Positions 11,727-63,119 of a DNA stretch of 64,000 nucleotides are shown here, one piece after another. Each line of letters begins with the position of its first letter. The stretch's first letter is position 1. The translations under genes and the position numbers were made by a program. This DNA comes from Gemmatimonadaceae bacterium (GTDB taxonomy: Bacteria; Gemmatimonadota; Gemmatimonadetes; Gemmatimonadales; Gemmatimonadaceae): the NCBI GenBank assembly GCA_019186945.1, contig JABAQJ010000006.1, positions 310,001 to 374,000 of the forward strand, written 5' to 3'. Below the pieces are notes generated by a model. The model searched no databases. It was not told where the DNA came from and saw only the letters and a list, made by a program, of their open reading frames with translations.

Positions 11727-14700
11727 ATGAAACCCCGCGTCCTGCTGGCGTTGGTTGGTTCGTTCCTGCTTTCGCTGCCAGCGGCGGCCCAGCAGAAGAC
11801 GGTCACGGGAACCGTCACGACGGATCAGAACGTGCCGATGCCCGGCGTACAGGTCTTCATCAAGGGGACCAGCCGTGGCTCGATGACGAACGCGGACGGC
11901 CGTTACTCGATTCGTGTCGCCGAGGGTCAGGTGCTCGTGTTTCGCTTCCTGGGCACGGCGCCGGAGGAACGTACCGTCGGGCCAGGAGATGTCATCAACG
12001 TTCGGATGCAGCCGGTAGCCGCGGCCCTCGATGCAGTCGTCGTCTCGGCACTTGGCCAGTCGATGGCTCAACGCGCGGTGGGCACGGCGCAGCAGTCGGT
12101 GAGCGGGGCGGACATCGCGACTACGCAGCGCGAGAACTTCATCAACGCGTTGCAGGGCCGTGTGGCTGGTGTGGAGGTGACGAGCAGTTCAGGAGTGCCT
12201 GGCGCTTCGACCTCGATCACGATCCGGGGTGTCAGTTCGATCAGCAGCAGCAACCAGCCGCTCATGATCGTCGATGGCCTGCCGCTGGACAACAAGACGA
12301 TGAACACGGGCGTCCTGGCATCCGATGCCAATTCGCTTACTGCGTTCAGCAATCGCGGGCTCGATTTCACGAATCGTGCGGCCGATCTGAATCCGGAAGA
12401 CATCGAGTCGCTCGTGGTATTGAAGGGCCCCGAGGCCTCGGCGCTGTACGGTATCGATGCCGCCAATGGCGCGATCGTGATTACGACCAAGCGCGGCCGT
12501 TCCGGAAGCGGCGGCCTGGATTTCAGTTCGAATGTCCGTGTGGAGGGCACGCGCGCGCGTCCGGATCTCCAGCGCGTCTACAGTCCGACGACGATCGCAG
12601 GGAATACGCTGGGTTCGTTCTTCTACTTCGGCGGTCCGTATGCGGCGGACACGCGCTTCTACGACAACATCGACGGGTTTTTCCGAACGGCGGTGACTCA
12701 GCGGGACAACCTGTCGTTCAGCGGCGGCATGCAGGACAACCGCATGACGTATCGGCTGGGGCTTTCGGCAGACCGGCAGGAGGGCGTGGTTCCCACATCG
12801 AAGTACACGAGAGTCAACCTCACCGGCGCCACCCAGGCTGACGTAAGCCGCTGGTTGCGCGTGGACCTCTCCATGGCATTCACGTCGGCGTCCAACGACC
12901 AGCCGTGGAAGGGGAACAACGGCCCGCTCATCGGGCTGCTAGTGTGGCCGCAGACGGACAACGCGAAGGACTGGCTGACGCCTGCTGGCAACCGCAGGCG
13001 CATCACCAACCTCGATGTGGCTGCCGAGACGGACAATCCGTACTTCAACGTCGAGAAGAACAAGAGTTCGTCCCGCAACGATCGGCTGATTGCCAACCTC
13101 GGGCTGATTGTCACGCCATTTACGTGGGGGAGCCTTAAGACCAACGTTGGCGTGGACGGGTACACCAACGACAACACGATACTCCGCCATCCCGAGAGCG
13201 CATTCGGCAACACGTTCAACGGCATTCTGGACGAAGCGAACGACGTCACGCGCAATCTGAATGCGCAGACGCTGCTGAACGTCAACCGTCGCGAACTGTG
13301 GAAGGGTATCGGGATCAGCGGACTGGTCGGAAACCAGGTGTCCGATTTCCGGTCGGAGACGGCGGCGCTGCAGGGGACGGACTTCCTCGATCCGAACTTC
13401 GTCAGCATCAACAATACCAGCCTGCGGACCAACAAGACGACGTTGGTCCAGCGGCGGCTGGTGAGCGCGTTCGGGCAGGCCACGTTCGACTACAAGGATT
13501 GGCTCTACGTCAACGTGACTGGCCGCAACGACTGGACGTCGACCATCCCGCAGAGCCGGAATTCGTTCTTCTATCCGTCGATCTCCGGCAGCTTCATCTT
13601 CTCTGACGCGTTCCCGTCGTTGCAGCGCTTCGCAAGAGGGAAGCTTCGCGCGGCGTACGCCGAGGTGGGCAAGGATGCGCGGCCCTACGCCTACCGTCCT
13701 GCGTTGCAGTACAAGCCCACGTCGTTCGGAGGGTACGGATACGACTTCTGGGGTCCGAACCTCGACCTGAAACCGGAGTTTGCCCGGTCGTACGAATTCG
13801 GAACCGAGTTGTCCTTCCTCGACGACCGGCTGGGTCTGGACGTGACGTGGTTCCGGAAACAGACCAAGGACCAGATCGTCAACGACATCCGCGGCAGCTA
13901 CGGCACCGGCTACATCCTGTTCAACCTGAACGGCGCCGTCACGCGCAACCAGGGATGGGAAGTGACATTGCGCGGCACGCCGGTGTCGTCGTCGAATCTG
14001 ACGTGGGACGTCCTCGCCAACTTCGAAAGCAGCCGTGGCAAGACGCTCGACCTTCCGCACGCGCTTCCGGAATCGTACGTGTCGGACACCTGGTTGTGGG
14101 GGAACGTCCGCAACGGTACGGCGCCGGGGCTTTCCACTCGTTCGCTCACGGGGCTGTACTACCTCAGAAACCGGGACTGCGAACTCCTGATCGATCCGAC
14201 GACCGGGTTGCCGTTGCGGTCGGCCTCGTTCATCGACGCCAAGTGCGTCGATTCCCAGGGACGAACCCGCATCGAAGGCTACGATCGGCAACCGGACTTC
14301 ACTGTCGGCGTCACGAACACGTTCCGGCATCGCAACTTCTCGCTCAACTTTCTCGTCGACTTCCGTAAAGGCGGCGACGTCTTCAACGCGACCGAGCATT
14401 TCCTTACGCAGCGCGGACTGAGCACCCGCACCCTGGACCGGGAGCAGCCACGGGTGATCGAGGGAGTGCTGCGGGATGGCAAGGAAAACAGCGGGATCCC
14501 GACGCAGAACACGATCGTGGTGATACCGGCGGTGCAGACGGCGTACTACACGGCGATGAGCGAAGAACTGTTCATCGAGCGGGACATCGACTGGATTCGT
14601 CTGCGCGATGTAACCCTTCGCTATTCGGTGCCGGGCAGGTTCATGGGCGCAACGGACGTGAGCGTCTACGTGACGGGCACCGACCTTTTCCTCGTTACCA

Positions 14701-34888: not shown

Positions 34889-36757
34889 TCAGAACACGTC
34901 GAGTGCCAGTTCCACCTTGCCGAACGGAGCCGAGACCTGGGCCCCCTGTACCGTGCAACGCACGGCGCTCAACATCTCCCTGGCTATCGCGATCCCTTCA
35001 GCGACCGCATGTTCCTTCGACCGCTCATTGGCGCGACGCATCCGATCGATCACGCATTCCGGCACGACGACTCCTGGAACTTCGTTGGCCAGGAACTCGG
35101 CATTGCGGACTGAAATCAGCGGCCAGATCCCGGCGACGATCGGCACGCGGGACGACGGGAGGCGTTCCAGGAACTGTTCGAGCTGGCGCACATCGAACAC
35201 CGGCTGGGTGATCGCGAACTCCGCGCCCGCCTCCATCTTGTACTGAAAGCGTCGCATCTCGAGCGCCGGATCGATGGCCGCCGGGTTCACGCCGACACCG
35301 ATCACGTAGGAAGTCGGCCTGCCGATCGCGTTGCCGCCCGGGTCCAATCCGCGATTGAGCCCCGCAATCAGGTTCGTCAGTCCGATCGAGTCGATGTCGA
35401 ACACGGCGGTCGCATCCGGATACGGCCCCATCTTCGGCGGATCCCCCGTCACCAGCAGCATGTTGTGCAATCCCATGGCTGCCGCGCCTAGCAGGTCGCT
35501 CAGCATGCCTAGCAGGTTGCGATCGCGGCAGGAGTAGTGACAGACGGTTTCGATGCCAACCCGCTGCTCGATCAGCAGGCTGGTCATCATCGCTCCCATG
35601 CGGCTCTGGGCGCGGGGGCCGTCGGGGACGTTCACGGCATCGACGCCACGAGCTTTGAGCGCGGCGGCGTCCGCGAGCATTCGGGTGGCGTCCACGCCCC
35701 GAGGCGGAACGATCTCGACCGATGTGACGAACGCGCCGGCGGCGAGTTTCGCTCCCCATCCCGATCGTTCGGCGATCGGAACAGCGTCGGCGCCCGGTGT
35801 TGGCGAGACTTGAATCGATGTCGCGGCCGGATTGCGGCGCGAGGATGCGCCGACAGCGGATGCGCCGAGCCGGGGAACGAGGGGGCGAATTCCCTCGACC
35901 ATTGCCTTGATGTGCTCAGGCGTTGTGCCGCAGCACCCGCCGACGATCCGTGCGCCCGCCTGGACGAGGTGACGGGCATACGAGGCCATGTACTCCGGGC
36001 TGGCCATGTACATCGTGCGGCCACCGACGTCGCGTGGCATGCCGGCGTTAGGCTGCGCACTCAACTTGCGGCCGGTCACCGCCGTCATGCGTTCGATTGC
36101 CTCGAGGATCGTCTGCGGACCGACCGAGCAGTTCAGGCCGATGACGTCGGCACCAGCGGCTTCGAGCCGACGAGCGATCTCGTCGGGAGTCGCGCCGAAC
36201 GACGTCAGACCATCGACGCCGATCGTCATCTGAGCGATGACGGGCATTTCGGGATCCACGTCCCGCGCCGCGGCGATGGCTTCTGCCATTTCGTCGAGGT
36301 CGCTGATCGTCTCGACGATGAAGCAGTCGGCGCCGCCTTCCTTCAGCGCCTGCATCTGTTCGCGGAACACGGCGCGCGCCTCGTCCCGCGCCGTCGGCCC
36401 AAACGGTTCCAGCCTGACACCGAGCGGTCCGACAGCACCCGCCACGATGAGATCGTCGCCGGCGACGTCGCGCGCCAGGCGAGCCGCGGCGCGATTGATC
36501 TCGATTACCTGTGACTCCAGACCGTGGGCGGCCAGCTTGAGTCGGTTGGCACCGAAGGAGTTCGTCTCCAGAGCCTCTGCGCCGGCGATCCGGTAGGCAG
36601 CGTGGATGTGCCGGACAAGATCCTCGGCGCGCAGGTTCAACTCGTCGTAGCACTGGTTGATGAACACGCCCTTGCTGTAGAGCATCGTTCCCATGGCTCC
36701 GTCGAACAGAACGACGGACGACGGATCCAGCAGCCGGTGCAGGCGAGTCGGCGTCAT
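34889..36757 (-). CDS. Bifunctional homocysteine S-methyltransferase/5,10-methylenetetrahydrofolate reductase
   Basis: A 622-residue fusion. Residues 1 to about 300 are a homocysteine S-methyltransferase barrel with D-G-A-M-G-T-M-L and zinc ligands Cys210 (G-L-N-C-S-V-G-P), Cys275 and Cys276 (G-G-C-C-G-T-T-P-E-H). Residues about 335-622 are a MetF-like FAD barrel (T-S-V-E-I-V-P-P-R-G, H-Y-S-C-R-D-R-N, L-L-V-T-G-D-P-P) that makes 5-methyl-THF. The start ATG overlaps the metH stop (ATGA), so the two are translationally coupled. The reductase half supplies the methyl donor for MetH; the methyltransferase half may use S-methylmethionine or another donor, or assist MetH. It lies under the SAM-II riboswitch upstream of metH. 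Confidence 0.92.
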   Translation of the reverse strand: MTPTRLHRLLDPSSVVLFDGAMGTMLYSKGVFINQCYDELNLRAEDLVRHIHAAYRIAGAEALETNSFGANRLKLAAHGLESQVIEINRAAARLARDVAGDDLIVAGAVGPLGVRLEPFGPTARDEARAVFREQMQALKEGGADCFIVETISDLDEMAEAIAAARDVDPEMPVIAQMTIGVDGLTSFGATPDEIARRLEAAGADVIGLNCSVGPQTILEAIERMTAVTGRKLSAQPNAGMPRDVGGRTMYMASPEYMASYARHLVQAGARIVGGCCGTTPEHIKAMVEGIRPLVPRLGASAVGASSRRNPAATSIQVSPTPGADAVPIAERSGWGAKLAAGAFVTSVEIVPPRGVDATRMLADAAALKARGVDAVNVPDGPRAQSRMGAMMTSLLIEQRVGIETVCHYSCRDRNLLGMLSDLLGAAAMGLHNMLLVTGDPPKMGPYPDATAVFDIDSIGLTNLIAGLNRGLDPGGNAIGRPTSYVIGVGVNPAAIDPALEMRRFQYKMEAGAEFAITQPVFDVRQLEQFLERLPSSRVPIVAGIWPLISVRNAEFLANEVPGVVVPECVIDRMRRANERSKEHAVAEGIAIAREMLSAVRCTVQGAQVSAPFGKVELALDVF

Positions 36758-39700
36758 CGATCCGCTCCCGACGATTCCAGGACGCCACGCACGGTATAGT
36801 ACTTCGCCTCCGGATGATGCACGATCATCGCCGCCGTGCTCTGCTCGGGAACGAGCTGACAGGCGGCCGTCAGTTCCATGCCCAGCGATTCGGCGGGAAG
36901 AAGGCGGAAGACCTGGGTGTGGTCGTCCAGGTCGGGGCAGGCACCGTAGCCCCACGAGTATCGCTTCCCCTGCCCCTCGGCCATCCCCAGTTCGCGACGG
37001 ACACGCCGGTGCATGTATTCGGCCGCGGCCTCCGCGGCTTCTACCGACAGGCCGTGGACGAAGTAGGCCTCGGCGTACTCGCCTCGCGCCTGGAGGTCGT
37101 CAAACCGCGCGGCCGCCGCCGGTCCCACCGTCACGACCTGCAACGCGAGGATGTCCACCGTGTCGGAGTCGACGCTCCGAAAGTAGTCCGCCAGGCACAA
37201 CCGATCGCGTCCGTCCTGGCGGGGAAACCGGAATCGTGCGACCTCACGGAGCGCTCCTCCGTCGGTCTCGTATGCCAGCGGGTCGTACACGACGAGGGCG
37301 TTCCCGCTCGACTGCACAGGGAAGTACCCGTAAACCGCCTGGGGAGCAAGCCATCCTTCGTCGGCTGCCGACGCCGACAGGCGGCGCAACACCGGCTCGA
37401 ACGTGTCCCGCACTGCTGTCTGATACTCCGGCCCAGACCCTCGCCCGCCCCATTGCAGGCGGTACAGCTCATCGAGATCGAGGTGGGCGAGCACGTCTTC
37501 GAGAGGAAGATCGCGAACCACCCGGGTTCCGAAGAACGGTGGTTGCGGGACTGCCTGGTCGGCGCGCACGGCGCTGCGCGCGCCACCGCTCACTCCGACC
37601 GAGGCATCCTTCCCGACGGCCGCGTGAAGAAACAAGTCGTTTCGCGACTCCTCGACCAGTCGCGCGGTCAGCGTCGCGCGCGTTTCCGGGACCATCAGGG
37701 CGTCCATCGTCTCGAGGCCCTCGAACGCATCCTTGCAGTAGAACACGCCCGGTTCGTATGGCCGCTCCCCGTCCACGAACAGCGCACGTCGGCCGAACCG
37801 CCGGTTGATGGCGGCACCGCCGATCAGCACAGGCAGCTGCATCCCGCGGCGGTCGAGTTCCTGCACGCAGAGTGGCATCTGCCTGGAGGTGCTGACCAGC
37901 AGAGCAGATAACCCGATGGCATCTGCCCCGACCTCTGATGCCTTGTCGAGTATCGTGTTCACGGGCACCTGCTTGCCGAGGTCGAAGACCGTGTACCCGT
38001 TATTCGACAGGATCGTGTTGACCAGGGACTTGCCGATGTCGTGCACGTCGCCGTACACGGTCGCGAGCACGACTTTCCCCTTGGTATACCCTTCCGCGCG
38101 TTCGAGGAACTGTTCGAGGTGACGGACAGCGCGCTTCATGACCTCGGCTGACTGAAGGACGAAGGGCAGGATCAGTTCGCCGGCGCCGAACTTGTCGCCG
38201 ACTTCCTTCATCGCTGGGAGGAGGACGTCGTTCAACACTCTCACCGGTGTCCGACGCACGCCAGCGGCGTCGAGCGCGTCCTCGATCCCGTCCTTCTTGC
38301 GGTGCAGGACCATCCAGTGCACGCGCTGGTCGGGTGACAGGCCCGCCGTTGCGTCGACTTTCGCCGCGTCGACCGGGCTATCCGGTTTGGCCGCACCCTC
38401 GAAGTGCGAGATGAACCGCTGCAGCGCGTCCGGATTCCGGTTGAATACCAGGTCGTCGGCGAGCGAACGTGCGGCCGCCGACACTTCCATATACGGCGTG
38501 ATGTGTGCCGGGTTTACGATCGCCGCGTCCAGACCGGCGCTCACGCAGTGATGCAGGAAGACGGAGTTGAGCGTGGCGCGCGCATGTGGCGCCAGCCCGA
38601 AGCTCACGTTCGAGACGCCAAGAATGGTGAAGACGCCCGGGAGTTCCCGCTTGATCGCACGAATCCCTTCGATCGTTTCCCATGCGGAATCGACCCACTC
38701 GGCATCCCCGGTGGCGAGCGTGAACGTGAGCGCATCGAAGATCAGATCCGACGGCTGCATACCGTATTCGTCGACGGCGATCGCGTGGATGGCTCGCGCC
38801 ACTTCCAGCTTGCGGGTGGCCGTCCTCGCCATGCCGCTCTGGTCGATCGTGAGCGCGACGACGGCAGCGCCGTGCTCGAGTGCAAGTGGGACAACGGAGT
38901 CGATACGGGCGCGGCCATTCTCCATGTTGATCGAATTGACGATCGCGCGACCGGGGACGTGCTTGAGCGCGTCTTCGATCACGTTGCGCTCGGTGGAATC
39001 GATCATGAGCGGTGCGTCCACGCTCATCGACAGGAGTTTGACGACCTTCGCCATCTGCTCGGCTTCGTCCGCGCGCTCGGTGAGTGCGACGCAAACGTCG
39101 AGGACGTGCGCACCCGACTCGGCCTGGTCGCGGGCGACGGCGAGGATGCCCTCGTAGTCGTCGGCGAGGAGGAGCCGTTTGATCTGGCGGGAGCCCTGGC
39201 TGTTGACCCGTTCCCCGACGAGGAGCGGGGCGGGGTCCTGGCGGAGCGTGATGGCGCGCATGGCCGAGGACACGCGCGGGACGTGGGGGGGACGGGGACG
39301 AGCGCGACGCGCTGTGCCGATGGTGGTTGCGCTGGAATGGTTATGGGAAATCGTGGCGGTGGGCGTAGTTGTGTTCTCGGGGGGGGGGCCCCGCGTTTCC
39401 GCAGCGACCGCTCCGACCACACCGCGCAGTTGCCGCACCAGTTCAGCCAGGTGCTCCGGCCGAGTTCCGCAGCAGCCACCGACCACGGACACCCCGAAGT
39501 CCCGCACGAACTCGGCCAGCATCGACGCCATCGGAATCGGCTCGAGCGGATACACGGCCTCGCCAACCCCGGTATTCAACGGGAGCCCGGCGTTGGGAAT
39601 GACCGAGAGCGGAAGGCGCGCGTGCTCGGCCAGATACCGCACCGGTTCGCGCATGTGCTCTGGCCCTGTCGAGCAGTTGAGCCCGATCACGTCCACTGGC

Positions 39701-40362
39701 AGCGCCTCCAACGTCGTCATCGCACTCGCGATGTCAGTGCCTAACAGCATCCGCCCGCTCGTGTCCAGCGTCACCTGAGCCTGCACCGGTACGCGGAACC
39801 CCAATTCGCGGAACAGTCGCTGGAAACCGCTGATGGCCGCCTTGACCTCGAGGATGTCCTGCGCCGTCTCCACGAGCAGAACATCGACCCCGCCCTCGAT
39901 CAGGTACTTGGCCTGGATGAAGTAATCCTCGGCCAACGCATCGAAGGTGACGTCCGACAGAACCGGATCGCTGCTGGAGGGAAGCATCCCCGTCGGTCCG
40001 ATCGACCCAGCCACGAATCGCGGGTGGTCCGACGTGGCATGTGCTTCGGCGGCCGCGCGCGCCAGCCGAGCCGCGCCCACATTGATGTCCCGGATCCGAT
40101 CGCCCAGTCCCCATTCTAGCAGCCGACGCGGTGTGGATTGAAACGTGCATGTCTCCACGACATCGCAGCCCACGGCAAGGAACGACTCGTGAATGGCGCG
40201 GACGACATCCGGGCGCGTAAGCACGAGGTGGTCGTTGCACCCCTCGTACGCCTTGCCGCCGAAGTCGTCGGCGGTGAGGGCGTACCTCTGAAGGTTGGTT
40301 CCCATCGCGCCGTCGAAAATCACGACGCCGCGGGCGATCGCCTCGATGTAGGCGGCCCGCAT
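36754..40362 (-). CDS. metH: Cobalamin-dependent methionine synthase
   Basis: A 1202-residue enzyme that methylates homocysteine from 5-methyl-THF through cobalamin. Domains in order: homocysteine barrel (1-310) with zinc ligands Cys230 and Cys297/Cys298; a Thr/Pro/His-rich low-complexity linker (about 315-360); pterin-binding barrel from L-V-G-E-R-V-N; B12 cap and B12-binding domain with D-V-H-D-I-G-K (lower ligand His774); and the SAM activation domain with R-Y-S-W-G-Y-G-A-C-P-D near the C-terminus. I start at ATG 40362 (M-R-A-A-Y-I-E). The longer frame from 40470 would begin inside the SAM-II aptamer, and GTG 40395 is a less likely option. It is coupled downstream to the HMT-MTHFR fusion. 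Confidence 0.95.
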   Translation of the reverse strand: MRAAYIEAIARGVVIFDGAMGTNLQRYALTADDFGGKAYEGCNDHLVLTRPDVVRAIHESFLAVGCDVVETCTFQSTPRRLLEWGLGDRIRDINVGAARLARAAAEAHATSDHPRFVAGSIGPTGMLPSSSDPVLSDVTFDALAEDYFIQAKYLIEGGVDVLLVETAQDILEVKAAISGFQRLFRELGFRVPVQAQVTLDTSGRMLLGTDIASAMTTLEALPVDVIGLNCSTGPEHMREPVRYLAEHARLPLSVIPNAGLPLNTGVGEAVYPLEPIPMASMLAEFVRDFGVSVVGGCCGTRPEHLAELVRQLRGVVGAVAAETRGPPPENTTTPTATISHNHSSATTIGTARRARPRPPHVPRVSSAMRAITLRQDPAPLLVGERVNSQGSRQIKRLLLADDYEGILAVARDQAESGAHVLDVCVALTERADEAEQMAKVVKLLSMSVDAPLMIDSTERNVIEDALKHVPGRAIVNSINMENGRARIDSVVPLALEHGAAVVALTIDQSGMARTATRKLEVARAIHAIAVDEYGMQPSDLIFDALTFTLATGDAEWVDSAWETIEGIRAIKRELPGVFTILGVSNVSFGLAPHARATLNSVFLHHCVSAGLDAAIVNPAHITPYMEVSAAARSLADDLVFNRNPDALQRFISHFEGAAKPDSPVDAAKVDATAGLSPDQRVHWMVLHRKKDGIEDALDAAGVRRTPVRVLNDVLLPAMKEVGDKFGAGELILPFVLQSAEVMKRAVRHLEQFLERAEGYTKGKVVLATVYGDVHDIGKSLVNTILSNNGYTVFDLGKQVPVNTILDKASEVGADAIGLSALLVSTSRQMPLCVQELDRRGMQLPVLIGGAAINRRFGRRALFVDGERPYEPGVFYCKDAFEGLETMDALMVPETRATLTARLVEESRNDLFLHAAVGKDASVGVSGGARSAVRADQAVPQPPFFGTRVVRDLPLEDVLAHLDLDELYRLQWGGRGSGPEYQTAVRDTFEPVLRRLSASAADEGWLAPQAVYGYFPVQSSGNALVVYDPLAYETDGGALREVARFRFPRQDGRDRLCLADYFRSVDSDTVDILALQVVTVGPAAAARFDDLQARGEYAEAYFVHGLSVEAAEAAAEYMHRRVRRELGMAEGQGKRYSWGYGACPDLDDHTQVFRLLPAESLGMELTAACQLVPEQSTAAMIVHHPEAKYYTVRGVLESSGADR
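39379..39388. repeat. Homopolymer of ten G inside metH
   Basis: Ten consecutive G on the plus strand (C on the coding strand) code for a Pro run in the variable interdomain linker, and are followed by CCCC. The frame is intact in this copy. Such tracts are prone to slippage and sequencing error. Confidence 0.9.
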
Positions 40363-40437
40363 CGGAAGATCCGAAAGCCTAACGAAGTCTGTCACGAGTC
40401 CGGAAAACGAGAGCGGCCCGGTGCGTGCGCGCCGAGC

Positions 40438-40490
40438 CGGCGCTTTAGCGTTTGTTTTACGTGGCCGCAAGTTGCCCTAAATCGCCACGA
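40438..40490 (-). ncRNA. SAM-II riboswitch upstream of metH
   Basis: On the minus strand, P1 is a perfect 6-bp helix, CGTGGC (40489-40484) with GCCACG (40465-40460). Inside it are the conserved GATTTA just after the 5' strand and CTTGCG just before the 3' strand. After P1 comes TAAAACAAACGCTAAAGCGCC, whose GCTAAA is the invariant SAM-II 3' element. Pseudoknot pairing is possible between TTG in the loop and CAA in the tail, and between GGC and GCC. Established SAM-II RNAs bind S-adenosylmethionine and repress methionine-synthesis genes, usually by hiding the ribosome site. Its place before metH fits. The start codon is about 75 bases downstream of the aptamer. Confidence 0.78.
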
Positions 40491-40574
40491 GTCAGTTATG
40501 CGATGGCGCGGCTTCGTCGGGACAGCGCGCCATCTACGTGTCGCGACGCCCAGACGAGTGTCGCGCACCTCATG

Positions 40575-40602
40575 ATCATACATCGCAGCCGGCCAATTGC
40601 AA
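40575..40602 (-). promoter_or_regulatory. Promoter of the metH operon
   Basis: On the minus strand TTGCAA (40602-40597), a 16-base spacer and TATGAT (40580-40575) make a good sigma-70-type promoter. Transcription would start near 40568, leaving about 78 bases before the SAM-II aptamer. It lies in the gap after the DUF167 stop. Confidence 0.5.
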
Positions 40603-40618: not shown

Positions 40619-40921
40619 CTATCTGCTCCCTGCGCCCGCCAGCGCTTGCACATCGTCCTCGTTCACGTCGCGCAACTCGACGATCTTCGAACGGGAAGTC
40701 ATCCCCGCGACCACGCGCACACGGGAGCGCTGGATACCAAGGCGCTCTGCCAGGAGTCTGATGACCGCGTCGTTTGCGGCGCCATCGACAGGTGGCGCAT
40801 GGACGCGGATCCTGAGCGCAGTTCCATGTATCCCGACTATCTCCGTGGCGCTGGAGCGCGGCTGCACCCGTACGGCGATGCGCACGGAGCCGGCGACACG
40901 CTGTACCAGTAGCCCGCTCAC
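40619..40921 (-). CDS. DUF167 (YggU) family protein
   Basis: A 100-residue DUF167 protein. The GTG at 40921 overlaps the YggT stop (GTGA), and from it the frame matches the family at normal length: I-A-V-R-V-Q-P-R-S-S, L-R-I-R-V-H-A-P-P-V-D-G-A-A-N and V-R-V-V-A-G-M-T-S-R-S-K. Function is unknown; yggU frequently follows yggT in many bacteria, as here. The upstream extension of the frame is not protein-like. Confidence 0.88.
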   Translation of the reverse strand: MSGLLVQRVAGSVRIAVRVQPRSSATEIVGIHGTALRIRVHAPPVDGAANDAVIRLLAERLGIQRSRVRVVAGMTSRSKIVELRDVNEDDVQALAGAGSR

Positions 40922-63015: not shown

Positions 63016-63101
63016 GGCAGCGACAAAGGCAGCGTCGGTGAAAACCGACTACGCAAAGCTTCGAGGCTACGACGCATCTGCGTTAGGCCGGTCGGGCCGC
63101 C
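63016..63101 (+). ncRNA. c-di-GMP-I (GEMM-I) riboswitch
   Basis: The three-helix GEMM-I layout is visible. P1 pairs GGCAGC (63016-63021) with GCCGCC (63096-63101) with one central A.C mismatch; the Vibrio Vc2 RNA has its P1 mismatch at the same step. GACAAAGGCA follows, the conserved ligand-side strand. P2 is a perfect 6-bp hairpin GTCGGT/ACCGAC with a GAAA tetraloop (63034-63049). Then comes the invariant ACGCAAAGC (63051-63059) and a P3 arm closed by ACGC-ATCT-GCGT (63072-63083). The G that contacts the ligand guanine (G20 in Vc2) appears kept, favouring c-di-GMP over cAMP-GMP. The lipoprotein ribosome site is about 20 bases downstream, so translation or termination control is possible. Confidence 0.87.
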
Positions 63102-63119
63102 GAACACATCACACAACCC

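Follow-up and report, generated by a model that had tools for sequence, protein, structure and literature searches.

SAM-II riboswitches are well studied structurally, and little experimental work has been done on their gene control. Its members were reported from alphaproteobacteria and, in small number, from other proteobacteria and Bacteroides; they have a promoter upstream and frequently a terminator (PMC1273637; PMC2258182). A survey of proteobacterial regulons recorded the element, as SAM_alpha, in Rhizobiales and Rhodobacterales only, with metY as the core target and hom, metA, metX, metC and metW as further ones; metH was not among them (PMC4239095). In S. meliloti, termination upon SAM binding has been predicted for metZ, and no antiterminator was predictable for metA (PMC9373788).

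We analyzed a 64,000-nucleotide stretch of DNA from a Gemmatimonadaceae bacterium (the window), in which a SAM-II riboswitch had been predicted from the letters alone upstream of metH. Sequence comparison makes it quite probable that this element is a genuine SAM-II riboswitch acting as a transcriptional OFF switch for the metH-yitJ operon. A literature search combining SAM-II with Gemmatimonad- names found no description; public genomes may carry the element as an automatic annotation. As far as the searched papers show, the Gemmatimonadota, mostly uncultured soil bacteria, are added to the range of SAM-II, and metH to its targets.

The aptamer in the metH leader

A cmscan search with the whole of Rfam found a match to RF00521 (SAM-II, SAM_alpha) on the minus strand at 40425-40498, covering model positions 1-79 with 36.5 bits against a gathering cut-off of 36. 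The 64 kb window as a whole gave an E-value of 1.3e-4, and a permissive scan of 601 bases gave 1.3e-6. The score is just 0.5 bit above the cut-off, which counts against the SAM-II reading; it is low probably because the model is weighted to Proteobacteria. The original prediction had proposed RF00521 against RF01826 (SAM-V) as a check, and RF00521 alone of the two matched: RF01826 gave no match in the region at E-values up to 10 and none genome-wide up to 1. RF01726 (SAM-II long loop) reached 22 bits in the permissive scan of 601 bases, below its 44-bit cut-off, and both of these identities were dropped. Elsewhere in the window, a c-di-GMP-I riboswitch aptamer (RF01051) was found on the plus strand at 63018-63104 with 65.1 bits. 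The parts of the SAM-II aptamer are as follows.

40425..40498, minus strand: SAM-II aptamer, RF00521 match
40484..40489, minus strand: P1 5' strand CGTGGC, read in the sequence, paired in 29/29 metH leaders
40460..40465, minus strand: P1 3' strand GCCACG, read in the sequence, paired in 29/29 metH leaders
40483-40478, minus strand: GATTTA block, read in the sequence
40479..40483, minus strand: L1 GAUUU, the strand that forms the triplex in SAM-II, without change in the 29 aligned metH leaders
40471-40466, minus strand: CTTGCG block, read in the sequence
40450-40443, minus strand: CGCTAAAG block, read in the sequence
40467..40476, minus strand: pseudoknot 5' strands P2a GGC (40476-40474) and P2b UUGC (40470-40467), from the metH leader alignment
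40439..40449, minus strand: pseudoknot 3' strands GC(U)AAA (40449-40444) and P2a GCC (40441-40439), from the metH leader alignment

P1, GATTTA, CTTGCG and GCTAAA had been reported to follow one another in SAM-II order, and all of these blocks were found in their places on the minus strand. The sequence features of RF00521, a class that binds SAM and rejects SAH, are present: a P1 hairpin whose L1 contains GAUUU, with UUGC ahead of the P1 3' strand, the P2b/P2a pseudoknot of the loop with the GCUAAA...GCC tail, and methionine/SAM genes downstream, metH here and hom elsewhere in the same genome. The same aptamer lies ahead of metH in 32/32 orthologous leaders read, the closest relatives being Gemmatimonadaceae/Gemmatimonadetes genomes; together with the RF00521 score above gathering, this upholds the predicted SAM-II identity.

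The loop-tail pairs are U40470-A40445, U40469-A40446, G40468-C40448 and C40467-G40449, with U40447, which we take to be the SAM-contacting U of the published SAM-II structure, unpaired between them. All seven pseudoknot pairs are standard in the window and are formed in 96.6-100% of the 29 aligned metH leaders, P2b being paired in 29/29. At the outer P2a position, 21 of these leaders have G-C, 4 have A-U, one has U-G and 3 have no pair; five sequences have changed P2a on both sides. One weak loop-tail pair had been taken as the sign of a possible variant; the site proved to be U40447 and the mismatches on either side of it, which belong to the usual SAM-II fold. Because the window retains every aptamer position that is invariant across the 29 leaders, a variant aptamer was rejected. 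Identity and conservation are thus backed by comparison, and the metH leader carries, as judged from sequence, a real and ordinary SAM-II aptamer of the known class that is predicted to bind SAM.

Promoter-like site, probable metH start and operon

The transcription unit was annotated as follows.

40575..40602, minus strand: promoter-like site TTGCAA-16-TATGAT, two overlapping matches against 0.1 expected in shuffles
36754..40395, minus strand: metH, cobalamin-dependent methionine synthase (TIGR02082, 1061 bits), most likely start GTG 40395
34889..36757, minus strand: bifunctional homocysteine S-methyltransferase / methylene-THF reductase, YitJ type (PRK08645, 711.6 bits)

The promoter-like site lies about 85 nt upstream of P1, in agreement with the promoter placed 80 bases upstream in the original prediction. 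Most metH relatives have a similar motif (CTTGCC/CTTGCA ... TAnnnT or GATCAT) upstream of the aptamer, usually only 20-30 nt before P1. The added leader stretch in the window (40490-40574, minus strand) contains the short inverted repeats GTCGCG/CGCGAC and TGGCGCG/CGCGCCA. Further upstream, a DUF167 gene ends at 40619, and in leader L035 an open frame similar to it, as read by eye, ends just upstream.

The longest metH frame opens at TTG 40470, within the aptamer, as had been noted, and the proposal that the real start lies downstream was sound. The 75-base spacing given with it fits ATG 40362, and here the relatives favor GTG 40395, about 43 nt past the 3' edge of the element as originally predicted. 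In the relatives, the metH frame begins shortly 3' of the U tract. The starts of leaders L035 (GTG; VTRLDQLPLRSAYL), L021 (GTG; VPDSFNVARLPLRSAYL) and L153 (ATG; MSTFPRLDSLPLRSAYL) match the window at VTDFVRLSDLPMRAAYI when aligned, which makes GTG 40395 the better start; ATG 40362 is less likely, since these three leaders stay in frame upstream of it with a start matching GTG 40395. The metH start of L018 lies near the equivalent of ATG 40362, which leaves that codon a less likely candidate. On the alignments, GTG 40395 is the most likely start of metH, and leader comparison thereby settles its likely start codon. The metH stop codon and the yitJ ATG overlap in the sequence ATGA, so the riboswitch probably controls both genes.

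Terminator, proposed antiterminator and alternative readings

Downstream of the aptamer and before metH, the leader has a G+C-rich hairpin followed by a U-rich tract (40439-40402), which, like the antiterminator, was overlooked in the original prediction.

40414..40439, minus strand: terminator hairpin CGGCUCGG (40439-40432) / CCGGGCCG (40421-40414), -18.1 kcal/mol
40402..40413, minus strand: U-rich tract CUCUCGUUUUCC, with interruptions; most relatives have a stronger tract
40429..40443, minus strand: antiterminator GCGCCG (40443-40438) / CGGCGC (40434-40429) with a 3-nt loop, -9.7 to -10.9 kcal/mol

The hairpin energy of the window was reached by 8/300 of its shuffles. A simple terminator scan with a loop of at most 8 did not report the hairpin on the minus strand, probably because of that loop limit and the five T in eight that it needed. 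A hairpin with a U-rich tract was found in 30/30 metH leaders scored, the U tract usually being better than that of the window, and in 83/85 leaders before any gene. Because a loose terminator threshold of -8 kcal/mol was met by 42-45% of shuffles, we compared the energy distributions; the mean best hairpin energy was -18.9 kcal/mol against -6.5 kcal/mol in dinucleotide shuffles. The tract CUCUCGUUUUCC is interrupted, so termination in the window may be leaky.

The candidate antiterminator uses the aptamer tail and the terminator 5' arm and would thus exclude both P2a and the terminator. In permutations that ignore relatedness, the tail paired with its own downstream sequence at -9.30 kcal/mol against -8.43 kcal/mol for permuted partners over 85 leaders (0/300); by the same kind of permutation, likewise blind to relatedness, own partners beat permuted ones in 27 non-metH tail-type leaders (0/500) and in the metH leaders alone (2/500). 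Compensating pairs were seen as AAAACGC/GCGUUUU (L022, L025 and L130), AAAAAGC/GCUUUUU (L007) and CCGCC/GGCGG (L145). When only the metH alignment was used, covariation in the antiterminator and in the terminator columns did not exceed that of column shuffles, probably because variation in these columns is slight and gaps interrupt the loop. Folded by itself, the expression platform has a minimum-energy structure in which the tail pairs with the U tract instead of its antiterminator partner, and the ease with which G+C-rich sequence pairs counts against the antiterminator evidence. Comparison backs the presence of both the terminator and the candidate antiterminator pairings.

From these elements we infer how the switch would work. 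With SAM bound, the P2/P2a pseudoknot would sequester the aptamer 3' tail (GCUAAA...GCC), leaving the G+C-rich hairpin downstream free to form, and RNA polymerase would halt at the U-rich tract before metH. When SAM is absent, the tail GCGCCG would pair with CGGCGC just downstream as the antiterminator, occupying the terminator 5' arm and permitting read-through into metH (from GTG 40395) and the overlapping yitJ. SAM binding, the switching itself and its OFF direction are predictions of this model.

The element might instead act on translation, as some SAM-II RNAs do (PMC6061858; PMC9373788), and GTG 40395 lies just about 40 nt from the aptamer tail. We consider this unlikely: no clear Shine-Dalgarno sequence was seen in or beside the tail, every metH leader scored has the hairpin and U-rich tract between aptamer and start, and P2a here is 3 bp of G-C, a longer stable P2a having been tied to transcriptional SAM-II (PMC6061858). 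Slightly less likely again is a real aptamer followed by a constitutive attenuator uncoupled from SAM, of the kind reported in S. meliloti, where no SAM-II-driven antiterminator was predictable for the terminator behind metA (PMC9373788). The weak U tract of the window would suit such an attenuator, and the antiterminator that uses the tail, present in the window leader and, on average, in its relatives, argues against it. A functionless chance or relic match to RF00521 is very improbable; the bits barely exceed the cut-off, as such a match might, and yet the 32 metH orthologues have the element at the equivalent place with the core invariants retained, and RF00521 was found in 170/249 genomes sampled across Gemmatimonadota. 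A SAM-responsive transcriptional terminator remains the preferred reading.

Relatives, antiterminator designs and described systems

RF00521 was detected in 57/59 related genomes. The 3.95 Mb genome of the window has three RF00521-like sites: the one before metH, one before a homoserine dehydrogenase-like gene (C3:469119; 31.8 bits, below the cut-off) and one about 600 nt ahead of a cysK-like gene (C2:575854; 46.3 bits), the names of the latter two genes being read from the protein sequences. In the relatives, the targets include metX, metY, metF, metK and yitJ, several of these names being assigned by eye. Leaders were grouped by gene through similarity to four reference proteins and clustering, with several names coming from reading the sequence and not from database calls.

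Several loci had unusual contents. In L004, L116, L140 and L164, the gene behind SAM-II and its terminator is panB-like, its name (ketopantoate hydroxymethyltransferase) having been assigned by eye; for a SAM switch, this is a surprising target. An ATP-grasp-like gene follows SAM-II in L032, L131, L149, L150, L157, L162, L163, L169 and L174, and at some of these loci a flavin monooxygenase-like gene comes next. L032 and the metY leader L029 each have, after the terminator, a short open frame rich in Cys and Met (MIARTLNCMCMCHHWS..., MSRRPLSCMPMPMMC...). L004 and L163 are two divergent SAM-II aptamers about 200 nt apart (G001:C13:14227-14302 and 14510-14583), and the aptamer L156 is carried by the second replicon (1.1 Mb) of Gemmatirosa kalamazoonensis (NZ_CP007129.1), which is listed as a plasmid.

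Two antiterminator designs were distinguished among the leaders. The tail design described above, to which the window belongs, occurs before metH, homocysteine methyltransferases, yitJ and some hom genes. In the second design, GCCGCC, the L1 part that serves as the 5' strand of the pseudoknot, pairs with GGCGGC of the terminator arm; this design occurs before metX, metY, the ATP-grasp operon and some panB-like and threonine-synthase-like genes, with the pair variant GUCGCG/CGCGAC in L029. Its pairing energy over 22 leaders was -13.70 kcal/mol against -12.66 kcal/mol for permuted partners (0/500), relatedness again being ignored by the permutation, and the L1:terminator-arm signal was absent in the metH leaders (403/500). 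The chances are about even that SAM-II in Gemmatimonadota forms a phylum-wide transcriptional regulon with two interchangeable designs, in which the terminator loop is paired by the pseudoknot 3' tail or the terminator arm by the L1 5' strand. The presence of two designs among leaders across the order is the only new element, the SAM-II class itself being already known. SAM-II gene control can be tested directly on the dozens of natural leaders whose antiterminators are readable.

Like alphaproteobacterial SAM-II (RF00521; the metA motif, PMC1273637), the metH leader has the P1 sequence, the GAUUU, UUGC and GCUAAA blocks and the P2/P2a pseudoknot, as well as a promoter upstream, a terminator between P2 and the gene, and a methionine gene downstream. 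It differs from known SAM-II in its host, Gemmatimonadota as against Proteobacteria/Bacteroidetes, in its target metH, and in a promoter about 85 nt from P1. SAM-V (RF01826, PMC6061858) has, by its published structure, the same pseudoknot core and SAM site; it acts on translation, and the window has no RF01826 match. With the S. meliloti metZ SAM-II and its sRNA RZ (PMC9373788), the leader shares a predicted SAM-dependent terminator directly after the aptamer, but the gene is another one, and here a candidate antiterminator was identified and checked over 85 leaders.
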